A DNA stretch of 53,039 bases from the NCBI GenBank assembly GCA_022511265.1, contig JAFLRX010000014.1, positions 10,493 through 63,531 of the forward strand. The letters run 5' to 3'. Shown in pieces: positions 7,787 to 52,768 of the stretch. The position numbers and the translations under genes are program-made. The stretch comes from Eubacterium sp. GTDB taxonomy: Bacteria; Bacillota; Clostridia; Oscillospirales; Ruminococcaceae. The notes beneath the pieces are model-generated. The model saw nothing but the letters and a program-made list of their open reading frames with translations. It ran no database searches and was not told the DNA's origin. The first letter of the stretch is position 1. Every line of letters begins with the position of its first letter.

Positions 7787-7805
7787 AAAACAAATTCCTC
7801 CTGAC

Positions 7806-7854: not shown

Positions 7855-7874
7855 ATGCTATTCTAGTGTTAAAT

Positions 7875-7903: not shown

Positions 7904-8023
7904 TATTATTTCACTTGCAAAGAAAGCAAATTTTGATATTATAATATTTTTTCGGTAATTTGTATAAAAAGAAAAACTAAAAATAGTGCAAAAAGTCATG
8001 TTAATAATTCCCTGCCGAAATAT

Positions 8024-8053
8024 AAAAAGGTCACCTCATGAAGTGACCTTTTG
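8024..8053 (-). terminator. Intrinsic terminator after the MATE gene
   Basis: AAGGTCAC pairs with GTGACCTT around a short loop. On the minus strand it is followed by TTTTTATATTT. It lies 7 bases past the MATE stop codon. Confidence 0.8.
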
Positions 8054-8059
8054 TGGGAG

Positions 8060-9421: not shown

Positions 9422-9455
9422 AAAAGTCATCTCTTTTCGATTTTACTAATGTAAA

Positions 9456-9484
9456 ATTATAACACTTTCCGTCGCTTTCGTCAA
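9456..9484 (-). promoter_or_regulatory. Sigma-A promoter of the MATE gene
   Basis: Minus-strand TTGACG and TATAAT with a 17-base spacer, ~35 bases upstream of the chosen start. Confidence 0.8.
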
Positions 9485-9544
9485 GCGTAAAATAAGCCCT
9501 GCTATTAAATGAATAGCCATATAGAAGGATATACTTAATTTATC

Positions 9545-9700
9545 GGGGAGACCTTTCTGTATAAAGGTCTCCCCGTCCCCCCTTCCAAAGACTTTTATTA
9601 TTTTCTTCCCAAGGGAGCTTTGGCACCCTTGAGAAGAAAATATTAAAAAGTTTTGGGGAGAGAGTTTGAGAGAGACCCTTTTACAAAAGGGTCTCTCTCA
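9545..9700. repeat. 156-bp imperfect palindromic intergenic element with hairpin tips
   Basis: The left tip is a perfect 12-bp hairpin (GGGGAGACCTTT / AAAGGTCTCCCC, 9545-9574). The right tip is a 16-bp hairpin with a 2-nt loop (9667-9700). Between them lies a third hairpin centred at ~9620 (TTTTCTTC..AAGGG / CCCTT..GAAGAAAA). The two halves are also related as inverted copies: each reads, outside to inside, gagacc-hairpin, C/T-rich run, AAAGACTTTT-like, ATTTTCTTC, AAGGG. It lies between two minus-strand genes. Looks like a MITE/REP-type mobile intergenic repeat; it may also end transcription of the DUF1275 gene, whose stop is 5 bases away. Confidence 0.65.
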
Positions 9701-9704
9701 ATAA

Positions 9705-10379
9705 TCAGGCTTCTTCTTTCTTTTTCAGCATAAACAAAATCGCCGCCAGCAGGAACACACCGCAGACAAGGCACGCCTTTTCCTGCAAATATATCACCGC
9801 CGCGCCGCCTGCTATCGCGCCCAGCATAAACGCGCCGATTATCCCGAAGTACAGCAGTGCCGTCCTGCCGGATTGTTTATCCTTGCCGAATATACGGCGG
9901 TATAGATGCTCGCTCGCGCTGCGGAGATTGCCGGTACACATGGTGGTGGCGTACGGGTTGCCCTGCACCTTGCGAAAGCTCTCCACCTGCATTGAGCAGA
10001 CGAAGGATATCGCGCTGACCGCCGCCAAATCCGCCGTCCCCTGCGGAAAAAACGCCACCGCGCAGACAATGATTATCTCCGCTGCGATAGACAGCTGCCG
10101 CCAATGCAGCATATGGTCGTCCCTGCCGCCGAACCGCCTGCGGATAAGCTCCGCCGCGATTATACCCGCCGCATACGCAGCTATCGGGATAAGATAATGC
10201 AACACCCTGCCGAAATCACCCTGCGCCAGATTCAGCGCAAGCAGCACGATATTTCCGGTGGCGGCATTGGCGAACACCCCGCCGCGCGCCAGATAACTGT
10301 AAGCGTCAAGAAACCCGCCGGTCACCGCCAGCAGCACACCGACACGAAACGACTCCGACGCCTGATATTTTTGTAACAA
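9705..10379 (-). CDS. DUF1275 (YoaK-like) membrane protein
   Basis: A 224-residue membrane protein with about six hydrophobic helices. The N-terminal helix pattern (AVTGGFLDAYSYL..GGVFANAATGNIVLLAL) is the signature of the DUF1275/YoaK family, as is the later FVCSMQVESFRKVQGNP segment. Members are widespread bacterial inner-membrane proteins of unknown function, sometimes suspected transporters. Start is TTG at 10379 with AAGGA about 10 nt upstream; no better ATG is nearby. Monocistronic with its own promoter. Confidence 0.85.
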   Translation of the reverse strand: MLQKYQASESFRVGVLLAVTGGFLDAYSYLARGGVFANAATGNIVLLALNLAQGDFGRVLHYLIPIAAYAAGIIAAELIRRRFGGRDDHMLHWRQLSIAAEIIIVCAVAFFPQGTADLAAVSAISFVCSMQVESFRKVQGNPYATTMCTGNLRSASEHLYRRIFGKDKQSGRTALLYFGIIGAFMLGAIAGGAAVIYLQEKACLVCGVFLLAAILFMLKKKEEA

Positions 10380-16415: not shown

Positions 16416-18977
16416 TCAAGTAAGCTTTTTCTTGATAAGCTCTATAATAAATTCCGAAGTGTGAGGATAATTCACTTGGAGTTCATTACGCGAAAATGCC
16501 GTACGCTGCTCTTTAAGAGGATCGTTTCCGTTTATTACCACATCTTCTATAAAGCTGAGAATATCCTCACGGGAATATGCGTGGTAATAGTTTTCAAGGC
16601 ACTTCTCACCTAACGGTATATATGTGTCTGAAAGCTCTACGCCCTTTTTAAGCATATAACAACACGGTTTCTCTGTGTAAAGATATTCGCCGGTAAATGA
16701 ACCGCAATCGTGTATCATGGCGTCGCTGGCAGCAAACACCTCATGATAGTCACCGGTCGTATCATATATGATATTGTCGCTCTGAAGCATTTCCTCCAGA
16801 TACTCATCTATCTGCTCTTGTGTCCATATTTTATGCGCTATGAGATTAGGGAACAAAAGCGGATGAGGTCTGAAAACAAAGTCTATATCGGGATACATCT
16901 TCGGCAGCTCGATAAACAGCCTGTAATAATCCAGAAAATTAGATATATTCAGCGACTTCCAGCCCCATACGGTGTGATGGGGGCATATCATTATCATTTT
17001 GCGTGTCTTATCGGCTCTGCGTTTCATAAAGAAATCCAGCTTGTCCATTTTAAGACAGCCTGTGACAATACCGTTCTTTCCTTTGATTTTCTGTTTCGAT
17101 TTAAGAAATTCCAAATTACCCGGAGTTTCTATACAAACACGCCACAGAAGATTATAGAAATCGGTCGCGATTACCTCTTCCCAAAATCTCACAACAGCCA
17201 ATCCGTAATTGGCGTACAATGTCAGGACATTCTTGTCAACAAAATATTCTATCTCGTGGAACGGATGAACAAGATGCTTATACGGATTAGCAAAGAAAAT
17301 AACGCTGTATTCATCCTTCAGCTCGAGATATTCGTCGTTCTTTTCGTCATATCCGCCTACAACTCTACCGGGGTATTCGGCGGAAAGATTGTCATACGCC
17401 TCATAATATGTGTCTAGCAGATACTGATAAGTTCTTGACACGTTCGGCGCGATGATGATATACGGATCAAGAATATTGTCCTCAAGCATCTTCTCAAACA
17501 CTGGGCGCTCGGGGAATACGCTGTTGAATACAACAATAAATCCGACTTTGATCTTGCCGTTCTTCTTATACTTCTTGCGGATAGCCCTTTCTTTTCTTTT
17601 ATATCCCCTTTGCACTTTATAAAATCTTGGATATTTGAGGCTATTCGGAATAAGTCCTTTTATCGACTGCTTGAATTTTTCCTTTTTCAGCCGTTTTTCT
17701 TCTCTCTCCTGCGCGTCAAGCTCTTCCTGTGTTACCGTCTTGGGATGAAGAGAATTGTAATAATCGGAATATGAAGCGTTGGGGTCGTTTATGCTTTCTC
17801 TGTATTCCCACAGCTTGTCCAGGACATTGCGCACCGAGGGCTCTTCAATGCACTTTTCTACAGTTAAATCAGAATTCTCGGCTATCTTTCTCAGCCTATC
17901 GACATTTGAGACATAGGAATAGTTTTCATATGCGGTTTTCTCGCACTTTTCAGCTATCTCTCTGCGCAGCCTTTCGTCGGAAAGCTGCTCGATTATATGA
18001 GGAAGCGTATATGATGCGTTGTTCAGCTCGCGCAGCTCTTTTTTATTCCAGCAAAGGATATAATTACGCGCGTCGTGAAAATACACATATTTACGGAGTG
18101 GCAATTTCGGCTCGTCATCTATTGCAGGTATTACGGTAGGCACGCCGCACATTGCGCCCCTTACAGCATTGAGGTTATACCCCACCGCCAAATCAAGATT
18201 TTCGCGGATATAATCCTCGATATGCTCGTCGTCAAGATTGCCCGTATACACATAACGAATGAGCGGAGAATACTTCGGAAAATCCATATTCCACATAACG
18301 CTGCCAAGACCGATAATATGGAAATTTATCTTTACGGGGAATTCCGGCTCTTCGTCCTCTTCTGTTTTTTCGGGATAATACCGCTCGTACAGATCATCGG
18401 ATATTCTCGTAATGCAATCTAACGCGGTGGTGCTTATAGGTCCGATCCAGCCTATATTTATCTCATTCGGGTCAAAATCGTTCTTTTTCTTTACAGTCGA
18501 ATTACAGCTATGCGTGCTTTGCGGTATGATGCGGTCTTCTGTCACATGGACGCCGTAATCCCACACATTCATCTTGCTCTTATTCAAAAAGAACAGTCCG
18601 CCGTTGTCGTCAAAAAGCCGTGTAACGGCTTTAACGTCGGGGTTTATCAGTCTGCCGAGCATACGCTTATAGCAAAGCGAGTCATATACATACAGGCATA
18701 TCCGCGCGTTTTTCAGATCTGCTATATACGGCAGTAAAAACATCAAGTAGTTGGCGGGTACCATAAAGACCGCATCTTCAAACTGCGAAAAATCGCATTC
18801 ATCAATAGCGATAAAACGCAGCGAGGTGCTGTTCTTCTCATACTCGCATCCGGACGCAAAATTGATATAATATGCTTCAATGTCCAAGCCTTCCGGTATA
18901 TTCGCAAGTATCTCCGGGACGATAGCCTGAACACCGCTTATCTGCGAAACAGTTTCAATAAAGTATACTATTTTCAA
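16416..18977 (-). CDS. Bifunctional glycosyltransferase - TagF-like glycerophosphotransferase
   Basis: An 853-residue fusion. Residues ~1-370 form a GT-B-like domain homologous to the two upstream genes (KIVYFIET..ISGVQ start, then YYIN and CDFSQFEDA). A Lys/Arg-rich, helical linker spans ~400-475. Residues ~475-853 match the CDP-glycerol glycerophosphotransferase family: a PHHTVWGW segment, FRPHPLLFP, and HDCGSFTGEYLYTEKPC. TagF-type domains polymerise glycerol-P or ribitol-P from CDP-alditol. The protein probably adds a sugar and alditol-phosphate units to the same polymer at the inner membrane face. Start is TTG at 18977 with GAGG upstream. Confidence 0.8.
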   Translation of the reverse strand: MKIVYFIETVSQISGVQAIVPEILANIPEGLDIEAYYINFASGCEYEKNSTSLRFIAIDECDFSQFEDAVFMVPANYLMFLLPYIADLKNARICLYVYDSLCYKRMLGRLINPDVKAVTRLFDDNGGLFFLNKSKMNVWDYGVHVTEDRIIPQSTHSCNSTVKKKNDFDPNEINIGWIGPISTTALDCITRISDDLYERYYPEKTEEDEEPEFPVKINFHIIGLGSVMWNMDFPKYSPLIRYVYTGNLDDEHIEDYIRENLDLAVGYNLNAVRGAMCGVPTVIPAIDDEPKLPLRKYVYFHDARNYILCWNKKELRELNNASYTLPHIIEQLSDERLRREIAEKCEKTAYENYSYVSNVDRLRKIAENSDLTVEKCIEEPSVRNVLDKLWEYRESINDPNASYSDYYNSLHPKTVTQEELDAQEREEKRLKKEKFKQSIKGLIPNSLKYPRFYKVQRGYKRKERAIRKKYKKNGKIKVGFIVVFNSVFPERPVFEKMLEDNILDPYIIIAPNVSRTYQYLLDTYYEAYDNLSAEYPGRVVGGYDEKNDEYLELKDEYSVIFFANPYKHLVHPFHEIEYFVDKNVLTLYANYGLAVVRFWEEVIATDFYNLLWRVCIETPGNLEFLKSKQKIKGKNGIVTGCLKMDKLDFFMKRRADKTRKMIMICPHHTVWGWKSLNISNFLDYYRLFIELPKMYPDIDFVFRPHPLLFPNLIAHKIWTQEQIDEYLEEMLQSDNIIYDTTGDYHEVFAASDAMIHDCGSFTGEYLYTEKPCCYMLKKGVELSDTYIPLGEKCLENYYHAYSREDILSFIEDVVINGNDPLKEQRTAFSRNELQVNYPHTSEFIIELIKKKLT

Positions 18978-19023: not shown

Positions 19024-20622
19024 TCAAGATTTCTTATTTCTGTTGAAATAATCATAATATGTTGCATTGGCATTCTCTTCAGCAGAAGCACGGTAATCAT
19101 CCAGCAGCTGCAGCACGCCGGCGATGGACTCGTTTTCCAATATCCGCTCTACCGTCAGCGCGGACTGTTCGGTATATTCGGCGATACGCTTTGCGTTGCC
19201 CTCGTACGAATAGTGAGAGACCGCATATTCATAGCAGCGTGCGGTATCATACTCTCTGGTCTGCGGGTCATTCAGGCGCGCGATGACCTCTTCCATTGTA
19301 TAATCCTGATAGGGGATATTGCGCAGCTCGTTCTTTTTCCAGCAAAGAGTATAGTTGGTCGCGTCGCCGAAATACACATACGTCCTCTTTGCTAACGCGG
19401 GGGTGTCGTCTATGGCGGGGATGAGCGTAGGTATTCCGCACAGGGCGGCTAAAACCGCGTTCATATTATAGCCGAACGCAATATCTATATTAGAGCATAC
19501 GTATTCGTCAAAGTCATTATCCTTGAGGTCTCCGGGAATAATAAATCTTATAAGCGGGCTGTACTTTCTGAAATTGATCTGCCCCATGATCGCGCCGATG
19601 CCCATGATATGAAAATCAAACATATGCACATCGCGCTTGTTGCCTTCCTCATCTTCTCCGTACATCGTATAAAGATCATCACAAATCCGGTTGATGCAGT
19701 CAAGCGCAGTTTTGCTAATAGCACCTACCCAACCTATGTTAATGACTTCAGGCGAAAATTCAGCCTTTTTCTTATCCATGGCGGTACATAAATCAGTGCT
19801 TACGGGGATCACACATTCACCGTACTGATCCAGGCCGTAATCCCAGCCTGTGGCATTGTCTTTATTGACAAACATACAGCTGCCTGTGCTGTTGAGCAGC
19901 TCGGCGATCTCTCTGTACTTCGGTCTTTGCATTTGTCTGAAAAATGAAGTAACGCATCTCGCATCATAAACATAAGGACAAATCTTAGCGCCTTTTAATT
20001 CTGCGATATATGGTAAAAGGAAAAACAGATAGTTTATAGGTACTATAAAAGTCGCATCCTCAAATTCAGAAAAATCACAGCTTTCAAGCGGTACAAATTT
20101 CAGCGTATCTTCTTCACTCTCATCATTGGATGTTTCTTCCTCGGCTTCATCCTCGAGCAGCTCTTCTACTGTTTTATTGTCAGTCTCGGAGGTTTCTTCA
20201 TTTTGGTCTTCCGCATTGTCGTCAAGGTGATCAAACAGAGTATCATTTTCGTTTTCGGTCTCATTATCAGCAAGGTTTTCTTCGTCGTTTTCTTCCTCTG
20301 AAACAGTTTCATCTTCCGCCGAAGCATCGGTTTCTCCCTCGACTGAAATAACATCTTGCTCATCGGATGTGCCGGCATCGTCCTCATCGGTCATATCGGC
20401 AGTATTCTCATCGGATGGTATAGTATCATCCTCGGCAGATACAGGCATCTCCTCGGCGATCTTCTCGGCTTCCATAGCCGCCCTTGCTTCTTCCGATAGG
20501 TTGATATAATATGTTTCGGCATCGCATTCTTCCGGCATCTTTCTCAAAATATCGGGAATAATCGTCTGAACGCCGCTGATTTCCTTTCCCGTCTCTATAA
20601 AATAAACTATCTTTTTTCTCAT
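19024..20622 (-). CDS. Glycosyltransferase paralogue with long acidic insertion
   Basis: A 532-residue member of the same family as its two neighbours (KKIVYFIETGKEISGVQ at the N-terminus; C-terminal GT-B half with GFNYM/GYNMNAV-like and PTLIPAIDD motifs). Unlike them, it carries ~115 extra residues at ~45-173, made almost wholly of Glu, Asp, Ser, Thr and Asn, inserted exactly between the YYIN strand and the CDFSEFEDA strand. The insertion must loop out as a disordered acidic arm. ATG 20622 overlaps the preceding stop by 4 bases (ATGA). Sugar specificity unknown. Confidence 0.72.
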   Translation of the reverse strand: MRKKIVYFIETGKEISGVQTIIPDILRKMPEECDAETYYINLSEEARAAMEAEKIAEEMPVSAEDDTIPSDENTADMTDEDDAGTSDEQDVISVEGETDASAEDETVSEEENDEENLADNETENENDTLFDHLDDNAEDQNEETSETDNKTVEELLEDEAEEETSNDESEEDTLKFVPLESCDFSEFEDATFIVPINYLFFLLPYIAELKGAKICPYVYDARCVTSFFRQMQRPKYREIAELLNSTGSCMFVNKDNATGWDYGLDQYGECVIPVSTDLCTAMDKKKAEFSPEVINIGWVGAISKTALDCINRICDDLYTMYGEDEEGNKRDVHMFDFHIMGIGAIMGQINFRKYSPLIRFIIPGDLKDNDFDEYVCSNIDIAFGYNMNAVLAALCGIPTLIPAIDDTPALAKRTYVYFGDATNYTLCWKKNELRNIPYQDYTMEEVIARLNDPQTREYDTARCYEYAVSHYSYEGNAKRIAEYTEQSALTVERILENESIAGVLQLLDDYRASAEENANATYYDYFNRNKKS

Positions 20623-27701: not shown

Positions 27702-29447
27702 ATGAAACAGTATCAGTTTGTAGTCACCGAGGAAAAGGCTTTCCTCAAAGAGCTGGAAGAATTCAGGCAGCAGTGGGACACTGTGCCTAAAATGGCTTTT
27801 CAGATCTTATCGGATATTCTGGAAGAAGACGCAATAATGAATGCCGGACACGTTATAGAACAGGTATTTCCCGATGTTCCGTGGTTCGGCTGTTCTACAG
27901 GCGGCAGTTTGGTAGATTGCCAGCTGGTACCGGGCATATCCGTTGTGGCGATAGTTTTTGAAAAAGAGTCTTCTCAGTTCATGGTATTCCAGTATGACAC
28001 ACATGAAAAGTCAATGGGATGGATAACACAGAAGATCACCGACGAAACGGAAAAAAATCCGTGGGTCAAGGCTATCGAGCTGTACTACACCTTCCCCGAA
28101 GAGTCAACCTCAAGATTTTGCGAGGGTGTGCAGGATATTGCCCCGCATATACATATATTCGGCGGCGTTGCGGGCAATGACGACTCAACCAGCAGTACGT
28201 CTTACGTTTTCTCAAAGGCGGGCGGTTATTCCGACCATGCTATCCTTGCCGTATTTTACGGCGGTGACGATTTTTATGTAGATTCCATAAAAATAACTGG
28301 CTGGAAGCCGCTCGGCAAAAAGTTCAGCGTCACCAAATCAGACGGCAGCGTGCTGCAAGAACTGGACGGCATACCCGCATACGATATATACAACAAATAC
28401 CTTAACATTGAAAATGATGAAAACTTTTTCTATAACACGCTTGAGTTTCCGCTGCTATATGAGCTTAACGGGGTAACCATACTGCGTACCCCTATGGCAA
28501 GCAATCCCGATCATTCCATTTCGGTATCAGCGGATATTGAGGTCGGCTCGACTGTCAGGATGACCTACGGCGACCCTCAGACGATTATAGAAAGCGTTGC
28601 CGAAGACAGCCAGAAGGTCGGAAAATTCCGCCCGGATGTGCTACACTTCTTTTCCTGCGTGGCACGTCGGTCATTCTGGTCCTCCGGCGAGCCTACTTAC
28701 GAGCTGAAGCCGTTTAAAGAGATAGCTTCGTCTTCCGGATTTTTTACGCTGGGTGAATTTTTGCGTGGTGACGGCTGTCTTAGCCTGCATAACGTGACTT
28801 TAGTCGTTGCGGCAATGCGTGAAGGGGCGGCAGAGCAAAACGAAATGCAGGATGTTTCTGAGGATAACCCCGCATCGTCTAAAAGAACGCTGGTGTCCCG
28901 TCTGGCGACATTCATCAGCGCGACCTCCGTGGAGCTGGAAGAGATAAACAACAAGCTGGCGATTGCCGCTATCACCGACGGTCTGACAGGACTGTACAAC
29001 CGTTCTGAGACACAAAGACGCATAGAGCGTAATCTTGAAAAGGTTGATACTACTCCCCTGTCTCTCGTCATGCTGGATATCGACAACTTCAAGCTTGTCA
29101 ATGATGAATACGGACATCAAGAGGGCGACAGGGTACTTACCGCGTTGGCGGGCATCCTGCTGAAAGAGCAAAAGCGCATCTCCGGCAAGATATCCGCGGG
29201 CAGATGGGGCGGCGAGGAATTTATGCTGGTGCTGGCAAATACCGATATTTCCACCGCTACACTTATCGCTGACCTTATCCGCCAGTGCTTTGAAAACACC
29301 AACTTTTCCACTATCCCCTCTCAGACTATCAGCGTAGGCGTTACTCAGGCAACGGTAAAGGATACCTTCGATACGCTTTGTACCAGGGTGGATACGGCTC
29401 TCTATAAGGCAAAGAAAACCGGAAAGAATAAAGTTATTGTAATATAA
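27702..29447 (+). CDS. FIST-domain diguanylate cyclase
   Basis: A 581-residue signalling protein. Residues ~1-210 are a FIST N domain (VPWFGCSTGGSL..), ~220-370 a FIST C domain, ~395-425 a coiled-coil-like helix, and ~425-581 a GGDEF domain (DGLTGLYNR entry motif, DIDNFKLVND, active site GGEEF). GGDEF domains make cyclic di-GMP from GTP; FIST domains are proposed sensors of small ligands such as amino acids. There are no membrane helices, so sensing is cytoplasmic. No RxxD inhibitory site precedes GGEEF (the region reads ISAGRW), so product inhibition is not expected. ATG 27702 has AAAGGAG upstream. Confidence 0.9.
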   Translation: MKQYQFVVTEEKAFLKELEEFRQQWDTVPKMAFQILSDILEEDAIMNAGHVIEQVFPDVPWFGCSTGGSLVDCQLVPGISVVAIVFEKESSQFMVFQYDTHEKSMGWITQKITDETEKNPWVKAIELYYTFPEESTSRFCEGVQDIAPHIHIFGGVAGNDDSTSSTSYVFSKAGGYSDHAILAVFYGGDDFYVDSIKITGWKPLGKKFSVTKSDGSVLQELDGIPAYDIYNKYLNIENDENFFYNTLEFPLLYELNGVTILRTPMASNPDHSISVSADIEVGSTVRMTYGDPQTIIESVAEDSQKVGKFRPDVLHFFSCVARRSFWSSGEPTYELKPFKEIASSSGFFTLGEFLRGDGCLSLHNVTLVVAAMREGAAEQNEMQDVSEDNPASSKRTLVSRLATFISATSVELEEINNKLAIAAITDGLTGLYNRSETQRRIERNLEKVDTTPLSLVMLDIDNFKLVNDEYGHQEGDRVLTALAGILLKEQKRISGKISAGRWGGEEFMLVLANTDISTATLIADLIRQCFENTNFSTIPSQTISVGVTQATVKDTFDTLCTRVDTALYKAKKTGKNKVIVI

Positions 29448-44008: not shown

Positions 44009-45598
44009 ATGGGTATCGAAGGGAAAATAAAACGCGGTGAGACCGCGCTCGGGATAGAATTCGGCTCGACGCGTATCAAGGCGGTGCTGGTCACCGACGA
44101 CGGCAAGCCGGCAGGCAGCGGCTCGTACACATGGGAAAACCGCTATATCAACGGCATCTGGACATATACGCTGGAGGATATACAAAACGGACTTCAGGCT
44201 GCGTACAGCGACCTTATCAAAAACCTCCGTATGAAATACAGCATTATCCCCAAAACCTACGGCTCGATAGGCATCAGCGCAATGATGCACGGCTATATGG
44301 CGTTTGACAGTGAGGACAGGCTGCTGGTGCCGTTTCGCACATGGCGCAACACCATCACCGAAAAGGCGGCGGACGAGCTGACCGCGCTGTTGCAGTACCC
44401 TATCCCCCAGCGATGGAACATAGCGCATCTTTACCACTCGATACTGAACAACGAGCAGCACCTCGACAAACTGTCATACATCACCACGCTGGCGGGTTAT
44501 GTGCATTTTATGCTGACCTCGCAGCACGTTATCGGCATTGGCGACGCTTCGGGTATGTTCCCGATAGACATTGCGACCCGTGATTATAACAAGGAAATGA
44601 TATCCGCCTTTGACGCGGCGGCGAAAGAACACGGCTTTGACAAGCCGCTGGAGGGTCTGCTGCCGCAGGTGCTGTGCGCCGGGGAGCACGCGGGACAGCT
44701 GACCGAAGAGGGCGCAAGGCTGCTGGATCCGTCCGGGCATCTCGAGGCGGGTATACCGCTCTGTCCGCCGGAAGGCGACGCAGGCACGGGCATGACCGCC
44801 ACCAACAGCGTACGTCCCCGCACAGGCAACGTGTCCGCGGGTACGTCGGTGTTTGCCATGGTGGTGCTGGACAAAGAACTGGAAAAGCTGCATAAAGAGA
44901 TAGACCTTGTCACCACCCCGTCCGGCGACCTGACCGCGATGGTGCATTGCAACAACTGCACCTCCGAGCTGAACGCGTGGGTCGGCATATTCAGAGAACT
45001 GGTTGACAGGCTGGGATATGAGGTAGACACAGGCGATTTGTATAAAGAATTGTTTGAGATATCGCTGATAGGCGACGCGGACTGCGGCGGGCTGACCGCC
45101 TGCAATTATCTGTCCGGCGAGCATATTACCGGCTTTGACGAGGGCAGACCGATGTTTGTACGCACGCCTGACAGTAGCTTTACGCTAGCTAACTTTATGC
45201 GGGCGCAGCTGTTCTCTTCTCTCGCCACGCTGAAAATAGGACTGGATATACTGCTGAAAGAGGAAAAGGTCGGCGTTGACCGTATCACCGGGCACGGCGG
45301 ATTTTTCAAGACGGAAAACGTCGGACAGCGTATTCTTGCCGCAGCCGCAAACGCACCTGTCTCAGTTATGAAGACCGCCGTAGAGGGCGGCGCGTGGGGC
45401 ATTGCGCTGCTTGCCGCGTATATGACGCAAAAAAAAGACGGCGAAAGCCTTGCCGACTGGCTGGACGGGCATGTGTTCTGCGATGCGGAGAGCAGTATGG
45501 TCTCCCCCGTCAAAGAGGACAGAGACGGCTTTGACAGCTTTATGGAGCGGTATAAGAAAACTCTCAATGTTGAGAGAACAGCGGTAGACTCGCTGTAA
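44009..45598 (+). CDS. FGGY-family carbohydrate kinase
   Basis: A 529-residue sugar kinase. The N-terminal ATP-binding fold starts ALGIEFGSTRIKAVL (~14-28). ISAMMHGYMAFD (~91), the GDASGMFPID segment and a central GTGMT..VSAGTSVFAM with DxG-type loops match the FGGY family (xylulokinase, ribulokinase and relatives). The C-terminal GHGGFFKTENVGQRILAAAA..GAWGIALLAAY completes the ATP cleft. It phosphorylates a ketose or polyol; the exact sugar cannot be read from sequence and no isomerase is adjacent. Start ATG 44009 with AAAGGGG. Confidence 0.88.
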   Translation: MGIEGKIKRGETALGIEFGSTRIKAVLVTDDGKPAGSGSYTWENRYINGIWTYTLEDIQNGLQAAYSDLIKNLRMKYSIIPKTYGSIGISAMMHGYMAFDSEDRLLVPFRTWRNTITEKAADELTALLQYPIPQRWNIAHLYHSILNNEQHLDKLSYITTLAGYVHFMLTSQHVIGIGDASGMFPIDIATRDYNKEMISAFDAAAKEHGFDKPLEGLLPQVLCAGEHAGQLTEEGARLLDPSGHLEAGIPLCPPEGDAGTGMTATNSVRPRTGNVSAGTSVFAMVVLDKELEKLHKEIDLVTTPSGDLTAMVHCNNCTSELNAWVGIFRELVDRLGYEVDTGDLYKELFEISLIGDADCGGLTACNYLSGEHITGFDEGRPMFVRTPDSSFTLANFMRAQLFSSLATLKIGLDILLKEEKVGVDRITGHGGFFKTENVGQRILAAAANAPVSVMKTAVEGGAWGIALLAAYMTQKKDGESLADWLDGHVFCDAESSMVSPVKEDRDGFDSFMERYKKTLNVERTAVDSL

Positions 45599-45607
45599 AA
45601 ATTTCTC

Positions 45608-45636
45608 TTGCATTTTTATGATAAGTATGTTAAAAT
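45608..45636 (+). promoter_or_regulatory. Promoter of the corrinoid-uptake operon
   Basis: TTGCAT and TAAAAT with a 17-base spacer. Transcription would start ~45643, about 15 nt before the riboswitch-like fold. Confidence 0.65.
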
Positions 45637-45657
45637 ATAGATAATTTAATATGCTGT

Positions 45658-45813
45658 AAGTACGGTTTGAAAGGTTTGTTAGCTGAGTAGGTAATTGTAT
45701 ATCCGGTTCGAGTCCGGAACAACTGTCATTACTGTATTTGAGCGGGAAAGGTGCGGTATGCCGTCAGCGCGGCATAGCTTTTTCCGCGCATAAGTCAGAA
45801 TACTTCCGTATTT
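45658..45813 (+). promoter_or_regulatory. Cobalamin riboswitch-like aptamer
   Basis: P1 is AAGTACGG (45658-45665) with CCGTATTT (45806-45813), 8 pairs including one G-U. Inside come a CCGG..CCGG hairpin followed by AACTGT, a TTACTG B12-box-like element, then GCGGGAAAGGTGCGG, a hairpin ATGCCG/CGGCAT, and the 3' element AAGTCAGAATAC before P1. Order and sequence follow the cobalamin family (RF00174), but the canonical GCCACTG box is altered, so it may be a divergent subtype. It precedes an operon of transcobalamin-like and ECF genes, which fits. Confidence 0.75.
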
Positions 45814-45835
45814 TCCGGTACAGCTTGGGACATGC

Positions 45836-45866
45836 AGGTGCGGCCATTTTGGTGCGCACCTTTTTT
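45836..45866 (+). terminator. Riboswitch-controlled intrinsic terminator
   Basis: AGGTGCG (45836-45842) pairs with CGCACCT (45855-45861), followed by TTTTT. The 5' arm repeats exactly an 8-mer of the aptamer (AGGTGCGG, 45749-45756). It lies 59 bases before the first gene of the operon, so it can shut the operon off before translation starts. Confidence 0.8.
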
Positions 45867-45924
45867 GTTGTAGCGGGAAAACAGGCATATAAATTAACAA
45901 ATTTATTTGAGAGGAAGTATCAAC

Positions 45925-48381
45925 ATGAGCGAAAGAAGTATCGCACGAAAGCCGCTGGCAGTAATAACAGCGGCGGCACTGGCACTGAGCATCATGCCGA
46001 AGCTTGACTATGCTTTGGCGGCAGAGGAGCTCGGCAGCGTAAGGGTCATTGTCAGAAATGACACCTTCGTTGGGGAAACCTACGACGAGTACGAGGAAGA
46101 GTACGTCACCCCCGCATGGTCGGGTGTACTGCTGGATGAATGGGTAGAGCTGTCCGCGGACAGCAGTATGCTGTCGGCTGTATTGCAGGCACTGGAGGAA
46201 AACGGCATCTCCCAGACAGGCGGCGAATACGGCTATATAAGCGAGATAGGCGGGCTTGCCGCAGAGGACTGCGGTTGGCTGAGCGGCTGGATGGGTACGC
46301 TGAATGACTGGTTTACCGATGATCTGTTTAACGCATACACCGTTGAAAACGGCGGGCTGACCGACGGCGACGAGATATGCCTGATGTACACCCTTGACTT
46401 AGGTCAGGATATAGGCTATGACTGGACAGGCAGCACCGACACCTCGCTGAAAAGCATAGGTATAGAGGACGGTACGCTTTCCCCTGCTTTTTCAGCGGAT
46501 ACGAAAAGCTACACGCTTACGCTGACGGAAGGCATAGATGAAATATATATCCGTCCCGAGGCACTCAACAAGAACTTTAAGGTTGAGGTCAAGGTTGACG
46601 GTAAGAGCGTAAAACGCTCGCGCCCTGTCGGGTTAAAGGACAGCAGTATAATTACGGTAACCGTTGACGGAGAGAATACTTATACTGTCACGGTATCATT
46701 GCCCAAAGCCGACACTCTCGGCAGCGTAAGGGTGATAGTCAGAAACGACACCTTTACCGAGAAAGACGGCAGCCCCGCGTGGACAGGCGTACTGCTGGAC
46801 GAATGGACCGAGCTGTCCGCTGACAGCAACGCGCTGTCGGTGCTGCTGAAAGCACTGGAGGAAAACGGAATATCCCAGACAGGCGGCGAATACGGCTATA
46901 TAACCGAGATAGGCGGGCTTTCCGCAGGAGATTGCGGCTATATGAGCGGCTGGATGGGCACACTGAACGACTGGTTCACCGATGAGACCTTCACCGCCTA
47001 TACCGTTGCCAACGGCAAGCTGTCGGACGGTGACGAGATATGCATGATGTATTCGCTTGACTGGGGACTGGATATCGGCAGTGACTGGTCGGGCACCGAC
47101 ACCTCACTGAAAAGCATAGGCATAGATGAGGGTACGCTCTCCCCTGCTTTTTCAGCGGATATGAAAAGCTATACGCTTACGCTGGATGAAGGCATAGATG
47201 AAATATATATCCGTCCCGAGGCGGTAAACAAGAACTTTAGGGTCGAGGTCAAGGTTGACGGTAAGAGCGTAAAGCGCTCGCGCCCGGTGTCGGTAAATGA
47301 CGGCAGCGTGATTGTTATAACGGTGGACGGCACCAACACATACACCGTCACGGTTAACGGCACTCCGTCTGACGAGCCGCCTACGGATGACAGTCCCGCG
47401 AATGAAGAACCAACAGGCAGCAAAACCCCGTGGCAGGATATTTACAAGACAACCGCCGAAACTCTCTCGGATATTGATATAACCGCATTGTCTGAGGCGG
47501 GCGGCGACTGGATAATAGTCGGGCTTGTCCGTGCGGGGCTGCTCTCCGATACGGCTGGGGATAAATATATAGCTGATGTTACCGAGACGGTAAAGCTTAT
47601 CGGCTCGGACACTGTCAGCCGCAAGGCGACCGACAACGCAAGGGTGGCTATCGCGCTGGCTGCTGTCGGCGCAGACCCCGCCGACATTGCGGGCTATGAC
47701 CTGTTAAAGCCGCTGACCGATATCGACTTTGTCACCCGTCAGGGCATAAACGGCGCGATATACGCGCTTATCGCGCTGGACGCGGCGGATTATGAGGCCG
47801 ACGCATGCGACGCGCTTATCGCATATATACTGGACGCACAGGTAAACGGCGGCTGGGCTTTGGTCGGGGAAACGCCCGACCCAGACGTAACCGCAATGGC
47901 ATTGCAGGCGCTTGCTCCGTATTACGATGACGAAAAGGTAAAAGCGGCTGTTGATGAGGGCGTACAGATACTGCAAGGCTGCGCCTATAAAACCACCGAG
48001 AGCGTTGCCCAGGCGATAATCGCGCTGACCGCGCTGGATATCGACCCTGCGAAGCTTATTGATGTGCTTGCGGCGGCATTTGAGGGCAAGGGCTTTGTCC
48101 ATGTCCCTGACGGGGAATATAATCAGATGGCGACCGAGCAGGCGTTCCTCGCGCTGGTGGCATACAGCAGATATCTTGACGGACAGCCGTCGCTGTATGA
48201 TATCGAGATACAGCGTGCTGACGACGCAGTACCGGGAAACAGCAGCGGAAATGCCGATGACCCCGAAGCAGATGCGAATAAGCCGAGTGAAAACCCCGCC
48301 ACCGGCGGCGCGCTTGACTGCACGGCGGCAGTTATTGCGGCGGCTTGCGCGGCAATAGCAATTACAAGAAAAAAGAAGTAA
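45925..48381 (+). CDS. Wall-anchored transcobalamin-like corrinoid-binding protein (2x DUF4430 + alpha/alpha barrel)
   Basis: An 818-residue surface protein. A signal peptide is at ~1-32. Residues ~36-165 are a DUF4430 domain (the beta-domain fold of transcobalamin and intrinsic factor), ~172-262 a cadherin-like beta-sandwich; residues ~265-479 repeat this pair after a 687-bp duplication. Residues ~500-760 form an alpha/alpha barrel of prenyltransferase/squalene-cyclase-like repeats (NARVAIALAAVGADP, DPDVTAMALQALAPYYDD), the fold of the alpha-domain of intrinsic factor. The C-terminus NPATGG, helix, RKKK is a sortase-type signal, so it sits in the cell wall. Likely captures cobalamin or another corrinoid. 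ATG 45925 follows GAGAGGAAG. Confidence 0.78.
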   Translation: MSERSIARKPLAVITAAALALSIMPKLDYALAAEELGSVRVIVRNDTFVGETYDEYEEEYVTPAWSGVLLDEWVELSADSSMLSAVLQALEENGISQTGGEYGYISEIGGLAAEDCGWLSGWMGTLNDWFTDDLFNAYTVENGGLTDGDEICLMYTLDLGQDIGYDWTGSTDTSLKSIGIEDGTLSPAFSADTKSYTLTLTEGIDEIYIRPEALNKNFKVEVKVDGKSVKRSRPVGLKDSSIITVTVDGENTYTVTVSLPKADTLGSVRVIVRNDTFTEKDGSPAWTGVLLDEWTELSADSNALSVLLKALEENGISQTGGEYGYITEIGGLSAGDCGYMSGWMGTLNDWFTDETFTAYTVANGKLSDGDEICMMYSLDWGLDIGSDWSGTDTSLKSIGIDEGTLSPAFSADMKSYTLTLDEGIDEIYIRPEAVNKNFRVEVKVDGKSVKRSRPVSVNDGSVIVITVDGTNTYTVTVNGTPSDEPPTDDSPANEEPTGSKTPWQDIYKTTAETLSDIDITALSEAGGDWIIVGLVRAGLLSDTAGDKYIADVTETVKLIGSDTVSRKATDNARVAIALAAVGADPADIAGYDLLKPLTDIDFVTRQGINGAIYALIALDAADYEADACDALIAYILDAQVNGGWALVGETPDPDVTAMALQALAPYYDDEKVKAAVDEGVQILQGCAYKTTESVAQAIIALTALDIDPAKLIDVLAAAFEGKGFVHVPDGEYNQMATEQAFLALVAYSRYLDGQPSLYDIEIQRADDAVPGNSSGNADDPEADANKPSENPATGGALDCTAAVIAAACAAIAITRKKK
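46030..47370 (+). repeat. 687-bp tandem duplication within the corrinoid-binding gene
   Basis: CTCGGCAGCGTAAGGG begins both copies, at 46030 and 46717. The two copies match closely through DUF4430 and the cadherin-like sandwich, including long identical stretches such as those encoding GIDEIYIRPEA. The close match indicates a recent duplication or ongoing gene conversion. Confidence 0.85.
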
Positions 48382-48404
48382 CAAAAATTTCGGGCGGTGT
48401 GTTT

Positions 48405-49271
48405 ATGGAGTTTATAAAAAAATACAAGTACATAGCTTTGGCGGCGGTTGCCGCTGCCGCGCTGATAGTGCTGATAATAATTCTCGGTACGGGCGGCGAG
48501 GACAGCGGTGAAAATGTTTCGGGCGGCGTGTCCTCAGAAGTATCGGACGTAGCGTCAGACAGCCTTAGCGAAAGTGTACCCGCAAGCACACCCGCACCCG
48601 AAAGCAAGCCGGAAAGCTCTATTGAAAGCACCGGCGAAAGTTCCACCGAAAATCCTGCTGATAGCTCCAATGAAAATCCCGAAAGCACTGAACACGTTGA
48701 CGTAACCGCCCCGGCTACGCAGGCTACCGCAACCGAAACCACCTCCCCGCCGCAAACAACACCCGCCCCGTCGGTTACCGAAAGCACGGCGGAAACCACA
48801 AAAGCACCCGTCACATCCACTACACCAAAGCCTGTAACAACAGTAACAACGTCTACCCCGCAAAAGGAATACAACAGCCTATGCACCTTAACGATAGACT
48901 GCCGTACCCTGCTGGACAACATGGACAGGCTGGACAAAAACAAGCATTCTCTTGTTCCGTCCGACGGGATGATATTCAGCTCGGCGGTGGGCTTTGACAA
49001 CGGGGAGAACGCGTTCGAGATACTTCGGCGGGTCTGCAATGAAAACGGCATTCATCTGGAGGCGTCCTATACCCCAGCGTTCGGCAGCTCGTATATCGAG
49101 GGGATAAACAACCTTTACGAGTTTGACTGCGGCAGTACGTCAGGCTGGATATATAAAGTAAACGGCGAGACCTACGGAACAGGCGCGTCCTCATACAAGC
49201 CGAAAAACGGCGATAAAATAGAGTTTGTCTACACCTGTGAGTTAGGCTTTGACGTAGGCGCAGGTATATAA
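48405..49271 (+). CDS. Membrane-tethered DUF4430 protein
   Basis: A 288-residue protein: an N-terminal membrane anchor (YIALAAVAAAALIVLIIILG, ~8-27), a Ser/Thr/Pro/Glu-rich extracellular stalk (~30-165), and one DUF4430 domain (~170-288; TSGWIYKVNGETYGTGASSYKPKNGDKIEFVY near the end). It resembles the beta-domain of transcobalamin alone. It may take corrinoid from the wall protein and pass it to the ECF transporter. The in-frame start at 48345 overlaps the upstream gene; ATG 48405 has GGCGGTG upstream and begins directly with the anchor. Confidence 0.78.
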   Translation: MEFIKKYKYIALAAVAAAALIVLIIILGTGGEDSGENVSGGVSSEVSDVASDSLSESVPASTPAPESKPESSIESTGESSTENPADSSNENPESTEHVDVTAPATQATATETTSPPQTTPAPSVTESTAETTKAPVTSTTPKPVTTVTTSTPQKEYNSLCTLTIDCRTLLDNMDRLDKNKHSLVPSDGMIFSSAVGFDNGENAFEILRRVCNENGIHLEASYTPAFGSSYIEGINNLYEFDCGSTSGWIYKVNGETYGTGASSYKPKNGDKIEFVYTCELGFDVGAGI

Positions 49272-49298
49272 ATCTTAATTAAGAAAGGCGGTGTCAGT

Positions 49299-50180
49299 AT
49301 GCGCGGCATAAAAAAATATCACCCGCTGGCGGGCACGGCGTTTTTCCTTGCGGTGATGCTGATAACCGCCTTTATACAAAGTCCGTATTTTGTCGCGGTG
49401 TCGCTGATTTTCTCGGTGCTTACCGCCTTAAATGTCAGCGGGAAGAAAGTGATCAAGCTGCTGCTGATAACCTTACCGTTTTTTATCATCTCCTGCGGTA
49501 TCAATCTGCTGTTCAACAACGCGGGGGTGACGGTGCTGTTCTATCTACCGACAGGCAACGCCGCAACTTTGGAGACGCTGATATACAGCGTCAACGCGGG
49601 CGGTATGCTCATCTCGCTGGTGATGTGGTTTGCCTGTGTTACCGAAATAATGACCTCGGACAAGATAGTGTATCTGTTCGGCAGTATCGCGCCGCGGCTG
49701 GGGCTGCTCATCTCGATGATACTGCGGTTTGTGCCGCTGCTGGTACGACGAATAAAGGAGACGGCGCAGGCACAGAAATTTGTCGGCTGCGACATATACG
49801 GCGAAAGTGTATTACAGCGGGTGAAAAACGCCCTGCGGGTGCTGTCTGTAGCTATCGCCGCCTCGGCAGAGGGCGCTGCGCAGACCGCTGCCTCGATGAA
49901 AGGGCGCGGCTATGGGCTGAAAGGCGTGCGCCGCACATCATATACCGTATACGGCTTTGCCGCCAAAGAGGCGGCGGCAGTCGCCGTTGTGCTTGCCGCG
50001 TCCGCATTGATAATCGCGGGGGCGTGCGCGGGCTGGACGGAATATCATTTCTACCCCGACTTTGCGACGAGGGCGGACGGTTTTACACTGATAACACTTA
50101 TCGCGTGGGCGGTGCTGTGCGCGCTGCCGCTGGTGATAAACATATACGAAAGCGGGGTGAGACGGCTTGACACTATATGA
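49299..50180 (+). CDS. ECF transporter T component (EcfT)
   Basis: A 293-residue membrane protein with about six helices. The cytoplasmic coupling helices carry MILRFVPLLVRRIKETAQAQ and AAQTAASMKGRGYG (Ala-Arg-Gly-type motifs), typical of the CbiQ/EcfT family that links the ATPases to the S component. It overlaps the next gene by 14 bases, so the two are made together. Substrate is set by the S module next door. Confidence 0.88.
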   Translation: MRGIKKYHPLAGTAFFLAVMLITAFIQSPYFVAVSLIFSVLTALNVSGKKVIKLLLITLPFFIISCGINLLFNNAGVTVLFYLPTGNAATLETLIYSVNAGGMLISLVMWFACVTEIMTSDKIVYLFGSIAPRLGLLISMILRFVPLLVRRIKETAQAQKFVGCDIYGESVLQRVKNALRVLSVAIAASAEGAAQTAASMKGRGYGLKGVRRTSYTVYGFAAKEAAAVAVVLAASALIIAGACAGWTEYHFYPDFATRADGFTLITLIAWAVLCALPLVINIYESGVRRLDTI

Positions 50181-52722
50181 GCTAAGCGGCTTTTCCTACA
50201 CCTATTACAACCGCGCATCGCCCGCGGTAAGCGATATTGGGCTTGCCGTTGACGAGGGCGAATTTGTGCTGATATGCGGAAAGTCAGGCTGCGGCAAATC
50301 CACCCTGCTGTCCTGCATGAAAAATCTGCAAAGCAGAGGCACGCAGAACGGTAACATACGCTTTTGCGGCGCTGACCTGCGTGAATATCCCCGCACCGCG
50401 CAGGAGATAGGCTATGCGGCGCAGCTGCCTGACGAGCAGACAGTAACCGACACCGTATGGCACGAGCTGGCCTTCGGCGCGGAGAATATCGGGATGAAGC
50501 AATCCGAGATACGCGCGCGCATTGCGGAGGTGTCGCTGTTTTTCGGTATAGAAAAGCTGCTGTACCGCAAGACCGACGAGTTGTCAGGCGGGCAAAAGCA
50601 GATAATCAATCTCGCGTCATTGCTTGTCCTGCGCCCGCGTGTACTTATATTAGACGAGCCGCTGTCGCAGCTGGACCCTATAGCGGCGGAAGAGCTGACC
50701 GGACTGCTGGGACGGATAAACCGAGAGCTTGGCATAGCGGTGGTGATTGCCGAGCACAGGCTGTCCCGCCTTATGGAATTAGCCGATAAAATGATAGTAA
50801 TGGACGGCGGAAAAATAATCGCCGAGGACAAGCCACAGAATATCCCCGCTGTCCTCGACAGGCTGAAGCACCCTATGCTGTACGCCCTGCCCTGCCAGAC
50901 GCGGGCGGCTGCCGCCGCAAAGGCAGACGAATACCCGCTGTCGGTAAAGGATGGCAAGGCATGGTACAGGCTATATGCCGCCGACCATACACTGGTTTTG
51001 CCGCCCGACAGTGCGCCACCGAAGCACGCCGAAAAGCTGTGCAGTATAAAGGACATATATTTCAGCTATGGCAAGAACGATGTGCTGCGCGGGCTGTCAT
51101 TGGATATATACAGGGGCGAACTGCTGGCGGTCAGCGGCGGCAATGCGGCGGGCAAGTCCACCCTGCTGTCACTGGTCTGCGGCAGCCTGAAGCCCGCAAG
51201 CGGCAGTATACGCTTTGACGGCAAGCCGCGTTTCGGCTTTTTGCCGCAAAACCCCGCGCTGCTGTTCTCGGCGGAAACGGTACGGGAAGAGCTGGAAAGC
51301 ACTTTTGCGCCGAAAGAACGGATAGAAAGCGCGATACGGCTCTGCCGTCTCGGCGGGCTGCTTGACAGCCACCCGCTGGACTTGTCCGGGGGCGAACGGC
51401 AGCGTGCCGCACTGGCAAAGCTGTTCGCTGTAGGCTGTGACCTTTTACTGCTTGACGAGCCGACCAAGGGACTGGACGCGGAATATAAATCTACCCTGTC
51501 GGATATATTGGTAAAGTTTTGCCAAAACGGCGGCACCGCCGTGCTGGTAAGCCATGACAATGACTTTTGCGCGGAAAACGCAAACCGCTGCGCGGTGCTG
51601 TTCGGCGGGCAGATAACCTGCTGCGCCGAACCGAGGGAGTTTTACACCGAGAACATATTTTACACCACCGACGCGGCAAAGGTATCGCAGGACGTCGCCG
51701 ACGGGATATTTACCGCGCGCCGGCTGATAGAGTCGGTGGGCGGCAAGGAAGAGACACCCACCGAGGATATACCCGATGATTTCTTCTATAACAATATTGA
51801 TATAAAGCCGAAACAGCAACCGCCGAAAAAGCCGCTGTTCCGCAAAACATGCACGGTGCTGGGTGCGGTGACCGCGCTGGCGGTGATGGTATTCAACAGC
51901 GGGATATTCCCCTTTGCTATACCGAGCGAGCCGTTTTTCCTGCCGTATCTGCCGCTGATAGTGCCGGTGGTGCTGCTTATCGTCGGTATCGCGCCGAAAA
52001 ACGATATTATCAGCCCGCACGTGCCGCATAAAAAGCGCCGCCCTGCCGAGCTGATAACGCTGCTTGCTACCGCGGCGGCGGTGACCGTCACGGTGATGCT
52101 CACCCTGCCGCTGGGCGGCGGGCGGCTGTATCTGCTGGTCGCACTGCTTATCTTGGTAGAGTGCTTTATCCCGTTCATAATCTTTCTTGAAAACAAAAAG
52201 CCCGCCGCCAAGGATATCGCCGCCATGGCGGTGATGTGCGCGGCGGCAGTCGCGGGGCGAGAGCTGTTTTTCATGCTGCCGCAGTTCAAGCCGACAGCGG
52301 CGATAGTCATTATCGCCGCGGCGGTCTTCGGCGCACAGCCGGGCTTTATCATCGGGACGGCGACAATGCTGGTGTCAAATATGCTGTTCGGTCAAGGGAC
52401 ATGGACGGTGTGGCAGATGCTGGCAATGGGGCTGACCGCGTTTTTCGCGGGGCTGCTGTTTTCACGGCGCAGATCAAAAACGGCGATGTGTATTTACGGC
52501 TTTGCCGCTACATTGATAATCTACGGCGGGATAATGAACATAACCGGATTTCTGACGATGCAGTCGGAATTTACCGCAGACGCGCTGCTGGCATATCTTG
52601 CGGCGGGGCTGCCGTTTGATATTATCCACGCGACCGCCACCGCGGTGTTTATACTGCTGTTGTCAGGGGAGCTGGTAAAAAGGCTGGACAGGGTGACGGC
52701 AAAATATGGGCTGTTTGCATGA
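50167..52722 (+). CDS. ECF transporter A-A'-S fusion
   Basis: An 851-residue fusion. ATPase 1 (~1-235) has Walker A GKSGCGKST, signature LSGGQKQ, Walker B VLILDEPLSQLD and AEHRL. ATPase 2 (~290-495) has GGNAAGKST, LSGGERQR, LLLLDEPTKGLD and SHDND. Residues ~555-851 are membrane: several extra helices, then an S-component-like part (VAGRELFFMLPQFKPTAAIVI, NMLFGQGTWTVWQML, FFAGLL) like ECF S components. In ECF transporters, the ATPases drive the T unit and the S unit binds the vitamin. Here A, A' and S are one chain, leaving only T separate. Start is TTG at 50167 after GGGGTGAG. Substrate inferred as cobalamin from the operon. Confidence 0.85.
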   Translation: MTLYELSGFSYTYYNRASPAVSDIGLAVDEGEFVLICGKSGCGKSTLLSCMKNLQSRGTQNGNIRFCGADLREYPRTAQEIGYAAQLPDEQTVTDTVWHELAFGAENIGMKQSEIRARIAEVSLFFGIEKLLYRKTDELSGGQKQIINLASLLVLRPRVLILDEPLSQLDPIAAEELTGLLGRINRELGIAVVIAEHRLSRLMELADKMIVMDGGKIIAEDKPQNIPAVLDRLKHPMLYALPCQTRAAAAAKADEYPLSVKDGKAWYRLYAADHTLVLPPDSAPPKHAEKLCSIKDIYFSYGKNDVLRGLSLDIYRGELLAVSGGNAAGKSTLLSLVCGSLKPASGSIRFDGKPRFGFLPQNPALLFSAETVREELESTFAPKERIESAIRLCRLGGLLDSHPLDLSGGERQRAALAKLFAVGCDLLLLDEPTKGLDAEYKSTLSDILVKFCQNGGTAVLVSHDNDFCAENANRCAVLFGGQITCCAEPREFYTENIFYTTDAAKVSQDVADGIFTARRLIESVGGKEETPTEDIPDDFFYNNIDIKPKQQPPKKPLFRKTCTVLGAVTALAVMVFNSGIFPFAIPSEPFFLPYLPLIVPVVLLIVGIAPKNDIISPHVPHKKRRPAELITLLATAAAVTVTVMLTLPLGGGRLYLLVALLILVECFIPFIIFLENKKPAAKDIAAMAVMCAAAVAGRELFFMLPQFKPTAAIVIIAAAVFGAQPGFIIGTATMLVSNMLFGQGTWTVWQMLAMGLTAFFAGLLFSRRRSKTAMCIYGFAATLIIYGGIMNITGFLTMQSEFTADALLAYLAAGLPFDIIHATATAVFILLLSGELVKRLDRVTAKYGLFA

Positions 52723-52737
52723 ATAATAAAAAATATC

Positions 52738-52768
52738 AATCCCGAAAGCGGTTATTGCTTTCGGGATT
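52738..52768 (+). terminator. Terminator of the corrinoid-uptake operon
   Basis: AATCCCGAAAGC pairs with GCTTTCGGGATT (12 bp, 7-base loop). The T tract after it is weak (GGTTTATGTTT). Confidence 0.75.

Follow-up and report, generated by a model that had tools for sequence, protein, structure and literature searches.

Background

What function is served by an operon which places two surface proteins beside a transporter of the energy-coupling factor (ECF) type and behind a riboswitch-like leader? This question is raised by a locus near the 3' end of a 53,039-nt stretch of DNA from Eubacterium sp. (contig JAFLRX010000014.1; the whole stretch is referred to as the window, and coordinates are positions within it). 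The operon (45644–52722, forward strand) is real and very probably represents a system for scavenging corrinoids, i.e., compounds of the vitamin B12 family, in a Gram-positive, Bacillota-type bacterium. Its gene set, the folds and families of its products, the homology of its leader and its genomic context were established computationally.

The core idea, B12 scavenging by operons of this kind, is not new and has been in print since 2007. Burroughs, Balaji, Iyer and Aravind (excerpts of PMC1796856) described a transcobalamin-like SLBB clade of Gram-positive bacteria, its domain being defined from transcobalamin; the clade comprises proteins, either secreted or anchored to the wall, which join this domain to an α/α toroid. 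According to the same excerpts, the operons encode a second paralogous extracellular protein, CbiO- and CbiQ-like genes adjoin, the hosts usually lack key enzymes of B12 synthesis, B12 scavenging was proposed, and the animal carriers were suggested to have been obtained from low-GC Gram-positives. Since DUF4430 is placed at the C-terminus of transcobalamins (excerpts of PMC4350170), the SLBB clade is equated here with DUF4430 (PF14478). The word riboswitch is absent from the main text of PMC1796856, and its excerpts hold neither a CbrT identity of the transporter nor a BtuH-type domain; the riboswitch, the CbrT identity and BtuH-type modules are the additions made here, and the window itself contributes tandem DUF4430/Cadherin-like units and an A-A'-S fusion. 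No announced bench test of these bacterial proteins was found in the literature searched, which excluded bioRxiv preprints altogether and the majority of subscription journals.

Gene organization of the operon

The leader and an intrinsic terminator are followed by four genes (45925–52722; Table 1), the first three being separated by 23 and 27 bases, while the last two overlap by 14 bases; the overlap depends on the TTG start of the gene for the 851-amino acid (aa) product, taken as mechanically listed. Due to this close spacing, the four genes are likely to share one transcript. The contig ends 317 bases past the operon. The gene set proposed in the initial annotation, namely a surface protein, a membrane-tethered DUF4430 protein, an EcfT and an A-A'-S fusion, was recovered by Pfam and NCBIfam matches, gene position and hydropathy.

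ECF transporter, substrate and host metabolism

The third and fourth genes provide the complete parts of an ECF transporter, i.e., two ATPases, a T- and an S-component. The fusion protein matched ECF_ATPase_1 (NCBIfam, E 4.8e-81). The preceding gene product had no Pfam match and a weak one to NCBIfam CbiQ (18.1 bits versus a cutoff of 111.8; E 0.0018), and was identified as EcfT by its conserved position in relatives and its several hydrophobic stretches.

The substrate is indicated by the S domain. Searched against the PDB up to E 10, it matched 6fnp_A, i.e., CbrT, alone (phmmer, E 3.2e-8), and a profile of 36 S domains (the window and 35 of 40 relatives, several hand-trimmed at the N-terminus) recovered CbrT at E 9.3e-22, about 17 orders of magnitude ahead of the next matches (3.1e-4 and 3.4e-3). 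An S-component of the CbrT type, predicted to transport corrinoids, is thereby supported. CbrT imports cobalamin and also binds and transports cobinamide (excerpts of PMC5997447).

The host genome contains one gene with B12-binding domains, which is located near a methylenetetrahydrofolate reductase gene and codes for a MetH-type protein of 788 aa. The score of the latter with TIGR02082 (490 bits, E 1.3e-146) remains below the cutoff of 1010.85, because only the first three quarters of the model are matched. Since this MetH-type gene is present, and neither the MetE domain PF01717 nor CobS was detected in the host genome, methionine synthesis probably depends on imported corrinoid.

The imported compound could be a precursor or variant (cobinamide, pseudocobalamin or other cobamides) instead of cobalamin itself. 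Cobinamide transport by CbrT is compatible with this, and neither riboswitch type nor S-component family can separate these substrates. MetH, however, requires a complete cobamide, and with CobS not detected a precursor would not be completable by the known route, which renders this alternative rather unlikely.

Conservation of the operon in relatives

Loci and genomes of relatives are denoted by L- and G-numbers, respectively. The first protein found a match at E ≤ 1e-10 in 28 of 148 family genomes (the window's own included); the 27 genomes other than the host's yielded 29 neighbourhoods, all of which were analysed. Barrel, DUF4430, EcfT, EcfA and EcfS were jointly present in 18 of these; some of the other 11 are cut by contig ends, while L035, L039, L054 and L055 have room and yet miss genes. 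In L051 and L054, a barrel-DUF4430 fusion stands directly beside the S-component with no T or A found nearby, L051 being on a short contig.

Within the genus, the ATPase fusion was matched at E ≤ 1e-100 in 24 of 71 genomes, the host's own and G132 among them. The 20 new loci examined (G179 and G175 were left out) contain barrel and DUF4430 in 16 cases, DUF4430 only in three and neither in one, all four loci devoid of the full surface set being cut by contig ends. A third set, the best 80 of at least 591 S-component loci, may share genomes with the other sets (L100 and L068, for instance, lie on contigs of equal length) and stems mostly from Clostridia, but also from Paenibacillus, Bacillus, Blautia parvula and Lutispora thermophila; DUF4430 was present in 59 and the barrel in 53 of these 80. 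At least 2.5 kb of upstream sequence is available for 68 of them, 12 of which possess neither DUF4430 nor barrel, and four of these 12 have a match to the riboswitch model R1 (described below), thus combining transporter and riboswitch without surface proteins. Loci L118, L139, L141 and L172, with an upstream riboswitch-model match and no DUF4430 nearby, offer a natural comparison group for the contribution of the surface proteins.

Surface proteins and their likeness to B12 carriers

In the first protein, Pfam detected two stretches each of DUF4430 (E 3.2e-13; 50.3 bits versus a cutoff of 23.8) and of Cadherin-like PF12733 (E 3.1e-15). The initial annotation had rightly described a wall-anchored protein with two DUF4430 domains and an α/α barrel, and had overlooked the two Cadherin-like domains. 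The second DUF4430 domain agrees with a profile of the DUF4430 type found in the second protein (hhalign, probability 98.3, E 1.3e-14). This profile alignment comprises 43 of 50 relatives' matches plus the window, and leaves aside shorter matches, two pieces at contig ends and those matches which belong to the N-terminal type found in the first protein.

A helical barrel, anticipated for residues 500–760, was modelled by AlphaFold with a mean pLDDT of 92.3 and a pTM of 0.90. A profile of 41 barrels (the window and 40 matches exceeding 180 profile residues) matched α/α toroid enzymes, with a best E of 1e-19; the transcobalamin/intrinsic factor family has this fold in common with cyclases and epimerases, which score higher. 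Foldseek with the window barrel alone gave no match at E ≤ 0.001, and neither the whole first protein nor the DUF4430 profile found a PDB match up to E 1.

The C-terminal NPATG anchor has counterparts in the orthologues of L080 and L082 (NPNTG), L081 (NPDTG), L084 (NPGTG) and L086 (NPPTG), and sortase PF04203 has three matches on one contig of the host genome, two of them above cutoff. The N-terminal hydrophobic stretch, a candidate secretion signal, remains below the hydropathy threshold, which is exceeded in five orthologues. For the second protein, tethering to the membrane and the DUF4430 assignment were likewise upheld, by its transmembrane stretch and by PF14478 (E 1.7e-16; 60.9 bits, same cutoff).

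Likeness to the animal B12 carriers emerges from the relatives. In 21 of them, barrel and DUF4430 occur in one open frame and in transcobalamin order (20 of these frames were aligned, L052 being omitted due to a contig end). The top 14 Foldseek matches to the structural model of one such fused protein are transcobalamin, intrinsic factor and haptocorrin, the lone transcobalamin β domain 5no0 ranking 49th (TMt 0.70). The animal proteins likewise comprise an α/α barrel and a DUF4430-type domain, albeit in one chain with the barrel first, whereas the window splits barrel and tethered DUF4430 and, unlike these proteins, has Cadherin-like spacers and bacterial surface anchoring. The initial wording, by which the animal carriers use exactly this pair of folds, needs correction as to the layout in the window, where the DUF4430 domains of the first protein precede the barrel and the tethered DUF4430 resides on a separate protein. 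No significant sequence match to the animal carriers was obtained (first protein and DUF4430 profile against the PDB up to E 1; Pfam in residues 500–760 up to E 1, where no family matched at all).

The barrel-DUF4430 fusions of L091 and L056 are preceded by an extra surface protein (7618–8562 and 9096–9995, respectively), which ends in SPDTG and KKRK in the former and in a hydrophobic stretch and KKRKK in the latter. Neither has a Pfam match above a cutoff, although a motif in them (GGSYGYYVNN in L091) resembles DUF4430 by eye. By means of this extra protein, the fused systems possibly have a wall tier, too.

A further connection to B12 capture is provided by L082, L031 and L084, where the orthologue of the first protein contains an extra domain between DUF4430 and barrel. 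The domains of L082 and L031 matched BtuH2 (7biz), crystallised with bound B12 (excerpts of PMC8941943), at E 3.1e-7 and 4.7e-9, respectively, and matched the last ~220 residues of BtuG1 in 8blw at E 6e-13 and 3.1e-13; 8blw is BtuB1G1, the BtuG1 of which carries a BtuH-like C-terminal extension (excerpts of PMC10404256). With a single query, BtuH-type domains were detected in six of 129 neighbourhoods (29 + 20 + 80 from the three sets), namely L031, L082, L084, L122, L123 and L166. No match was found in L180 and L181, which were also scanned, in the first protein of the window, or, up to E 1, in the long protein of L035. The occurrence of such domains beside CbrT-type ECF operons hints that Bacteroidota and Bacillota have exchanged modules for B12 capture.

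On this evidence it is unlikely that the ECF transporter alone accounts for corrinoid import while the wall protein acts as an adhesin or a store without hand-over. Cadherin-like and similar spacers are indeed common in adhesins, descriptions of ECF transporters usually include no extracytoplasmic binding protein, and the 12 of 68 S-component loci (from the best 80 of at least 591) without DUF4430 nearby would conform to such a role; against it stand the frames which join barrel and DUF4430 in the order of transcobalamin, the fold matches to B12 carriers, the BtuH-type domains in some orthologues and the frequent co-location of the surface genes with the transporter.

Leader and terminator

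The cobalamin-riboswitch-like leader of the initial annotation drew no match from RF00174 itself and is supported by homology to leaders which pass this model. In G132, of the same genus, RF00174 is matched just upstream of the orthologous operon; for this reason, the search was continued past the negative Rfam results. The RF00174-passing leaders of the orthologous same-genus operons of G132 (40.4 bits) and L086 (46.7 bits) matched 45657–45814 at E 6.1e-12 and 4.7e-9, respectively (nhmmer), the window leader aligning with that of G132 through the core. A covariance model, R1, was trained exclusively on 14 leaders from such operons which pass RF00174, with the window excluded (the cores of L031 and L084 are identical). 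It scored 45644–45825 at 75.3 bits over model positions 1–189, and the corresponding leaders of L080, L081 and L082, the closest relatives, at 61.6 to 62.5 bits.

The structure was drawn by hand from the RF00174 alignment and an alignment of six leaders. In helices P1, P4 and the base of P6, 96.1 % of the cells in the six leaders are paired, versus 28.9–47.1 % when slid by 1–3 columns. Most pairs are invariant and one shows a change in both partners; 74 of 500 shuffles do equally well. As nearly all pairs are invariant and covariation does not exceed that of shuffles, the assignment is founded on homology and not on covariation. At a site occupied by a short stem in L031 and L086, the window and L080–L082 share an enlarged hairpin, and this enlargement probably costs Rfam score. 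Compared with RF00174 and RF01689, the core is homologous and relatives pass the models, while the window differs by its missing Rfam match, enlarged P6 and altered P3.

RF00174 exceeded its cutoff in 11 of the 29 family neighbourhoods, each time upstream of the operon genes and on the same strand, and RF01689 (AdoCbl-II) did so in one further neighbourhood (36.8 bits), again upstream and on the operon strand. Matches to RF01689 in L046 (36.8 bits) and L097 (36.9 bits) lie just over its cutoff of 36.5 bits. Among the 20 same-genus loci, four have an Rfam B12 riboswitch (three RF00174, one RF01689). In the 28 genomes matched by the first protein, 11 of the 27 RF00174 matches at E ≤ 0.001 fall within 0.40 Mb (0.61 %) of ~65 Mb (binomial p ~5e-18; genome sizes rounded, stricter filters in the genome-wide search). 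In the best 80 S-component loci, R1 matched 23 upstream of the S gene and in the same orientation (E up to 0.1), and four others solely at different places; genome-wide, without placement at the loci, RF00174 was matched in 34/40 and 30/40 of their genomes.

Several results weigh against a functional riboswitch in the window. Rfam gave no leader match at the gathering cutoff (31.5 bits for RF00174) and none up to E 10 in 45560–45960, RF00174 had no match at E ≤ 0.001 anywhere in the host genome, and the leaders of L080–L082 likewise have no Rfam match. Furthermore, the alignment gives no visible sign that P3 pairing is retained between the two leader groups, and one P6 pair is mismatched in four of the six leaders. 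These results would also fit a decayed riboswitch which has lost corrinoid sensing, leaving the operon constitutive. Such decay is quite improbable, considering that the core is nearly letter-for-letter identical in L080–L082, the ATPase fusions of which are 66–70 % identical to that of the window, that, with the sole exception of the window's outermost P1 pair, no break is seen in P1, P4 or the CTG/CAG pairs, and that a terminator follows the leader in all four. A divergent cobalamin-type riboswitch leader is supported by homology, with corrinoid binding and switching predicted.

The terminator proposed initially was confirmed as a hairpin with a T run. It folds with −17.6 kcal/mol (z −2.4), a value reached by 5 of 200 shuffles, and its matching hairpins in L080, L081 and L082, which differ in stem letters, fit an off-switch. 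It was missing from the output of a consensus terminator scanner, for which the bulge is the probable cause. The scanner instead placed a terminator at 45757–45776, which lies within the enlarged P6 of the aptamer and was rejected as the operon terminator.

In several relatives, a small frame with the motif GPW(T/P)RALEAAG was noticed by eye between riboswitch and first surface gene (L031, ~6144–6402; L056, 9883–10188; also L084 and L086); the 57 bases available in the window leave no room for it.

That the S-component carries riboflavin or folate and is linked to the riboswitch by accident was rejected as very improbable, since its Pfam label (PF07155, ECF-ribofla_trS, E 2.9e-9) and a folT-family model, which recognises 29 of the 36 S domains at E ≤ 0.001 (window, 25.2 bits versus a cutoff of 60), are opposed by CbrT as by far its best match and by the enrichment of cobalamin riboswitches at these operons. 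A consistent link of the homologous operons to a non-corrinoid pathway was not seen among those neighbouring genes that were annotated; the proximity of the S-component to CbrT, the BtuH-type domains in some sister proteins and a MetH-type gene with no MetE or CobS detected account for this judgement.

Table 1 Features of the corrinoid-scavenging operon predicted in the window and BtuH-type domains in orthologues of its first protein (coordinates of the latter refer to the respective relative's locus)
Feature	Position	Strand	Basis and details
Leader, divergent cobalamin-riboswitch type	45644..45825	+	Homology to RF00174-passing leaders; core 45657–45814; enlarged P6 hairpin ~45739–45790
Intrinsic terminator	45836..45867	+	Fold and relatives; hairpin 45836–45861 with a singly bulged 11-bp stem, followed by T run
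Surface protein, 818 aa	45925..48381	+	DUF4430, Cadherin-like, DUF4430, Cadherin-like, α/α barrel, NPATG anchor
First DUF4430 domain, approximate limits	46024..46422	+	Pfam stretch; internal repeat
Second DUF4430 domain	46717..47094	+	Pfam, best stretch aa 301–364
Second Cadherin-like β-sandwich	47119..47358	+	PF12733, aa 399–478
α/α barrel (toroid), modelled stretch	47392..48249	+	AlphaFold
Sortase-type anchor	48292..48378	+	Motif and hydropathy; NPATG, hydrophobic stretch, KKK
Membrane-tethered DUF4430 protein, 288 aa	48405..49271	+	N-terminal transmembrane stretch aa 10–28, Ser/Thr-rich stalk, DUF4430
EcfT-type transmembrane coupling protein, 293 aa	49299..50180	+	Weak CbiQ match, position, hydropathy
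EcfA-EcfA'-EcfS fusion, 851 aa	50167..52722	+	Pfam ABC_tran (twice) and PF07155
CbrT-like S-component in the fusion	52225..52710	+	phmmer and family profile
BtuH-type domain, L031	6438–10796 (open reading frame)		aa 636–880
BtuH-type domain, L082	6368–10876 (open reading frame)		aa 641–885
BtuH-type domain, L084	6217–10605 (open reading frame)		aa 636–880

Proposed route of corrinoid uptake

From these findings we infer corrinoid binding, a clamp between the two surface proteins, the order of hand-over and the sign of regulation as follows. Under scarcity of corrinoid, the leader would allow read-through, whereas bound corrinoid would let the terminator stop transcription. The first product would be attached to the cell wall by sortase and hold corrinoid by means of its DUF4430 domains and α/α barrel, and the stalked DUF4430 of the second would close together with a barrel over the corrinoid, in the manner of the transcobalamin β domain. 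The corrinoid may then be passed to the CbrT-like S-component of the A-A'-S/T transporter, imported at the expense of ATP and supplied to MetH.

A relay from wall via membrane to S-component is plausible. The Isd system of Staphylococcus, a haem relay from wall-anchored to membrane proteins and on to an importer, serves as a working analogy, its proteins and ligand being unrelated. We know of no ECF transporter with a demonstrated extracytoplasmic hand-over partner. That the present one has a capture relay of its own, consisting of wall carrier and stalked DUF4430, a transcobalamin-like clamp formed in trans and delivery to a CbrT-type S-component, is a proposal for which the chances appear evenly balanced.

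ECF-CbrT (PDB 6fnp; excerpts of PMC5997447) has a homologous S-component and the same type of T, A, A' module; in contrast to it, the window has A, A' and S fused in one chain with the T gene beside, and includes surface proteins and a leader in the operon. CbrT of L. delbrueckii shares its ECF module with other S-components (same excerpts). BtuG and BtuH of Bacteroides likewise represent surface B12 capture ahead of a transporter, encoded at loci with B12 riboswitches (excerpts of PMC8941943 and PMC10404256), while in the window the first protein has no BtuH-type domain, and there is no outer membrane and no BtuB.

Other genes in the window

Apart from the operon, the window encodes an open-ended protein of 2595 aa with SpaA prealbumin-like stretches (2–7786, reverse strand), two large proteins of 853 and 532 aa (16416–18977 and 19024–20622, both reverse strand) without Pfam match at 1e-5, and a GGDEF domain fused to FIST sensor domains (27702–29447, forward strand).

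Conclusions

With its cobalamin-type leader, CbrT-type transporter and candidate binding proteins, the operon renders the prediction of 2007 testable at one defined locus. If the proposed capture relay holds true, BtuH-type capture modules would be common to Bacillota and Bacteroides, i.e., shared across phyla, and the barrel-DUF4430 pair of such operons would represent the bacterial source of the animal B12 carriers, an origin put forward in 2007 (PMC1796856). The operon also bears on the origin of animal intrinsic factor and transcobalamin.

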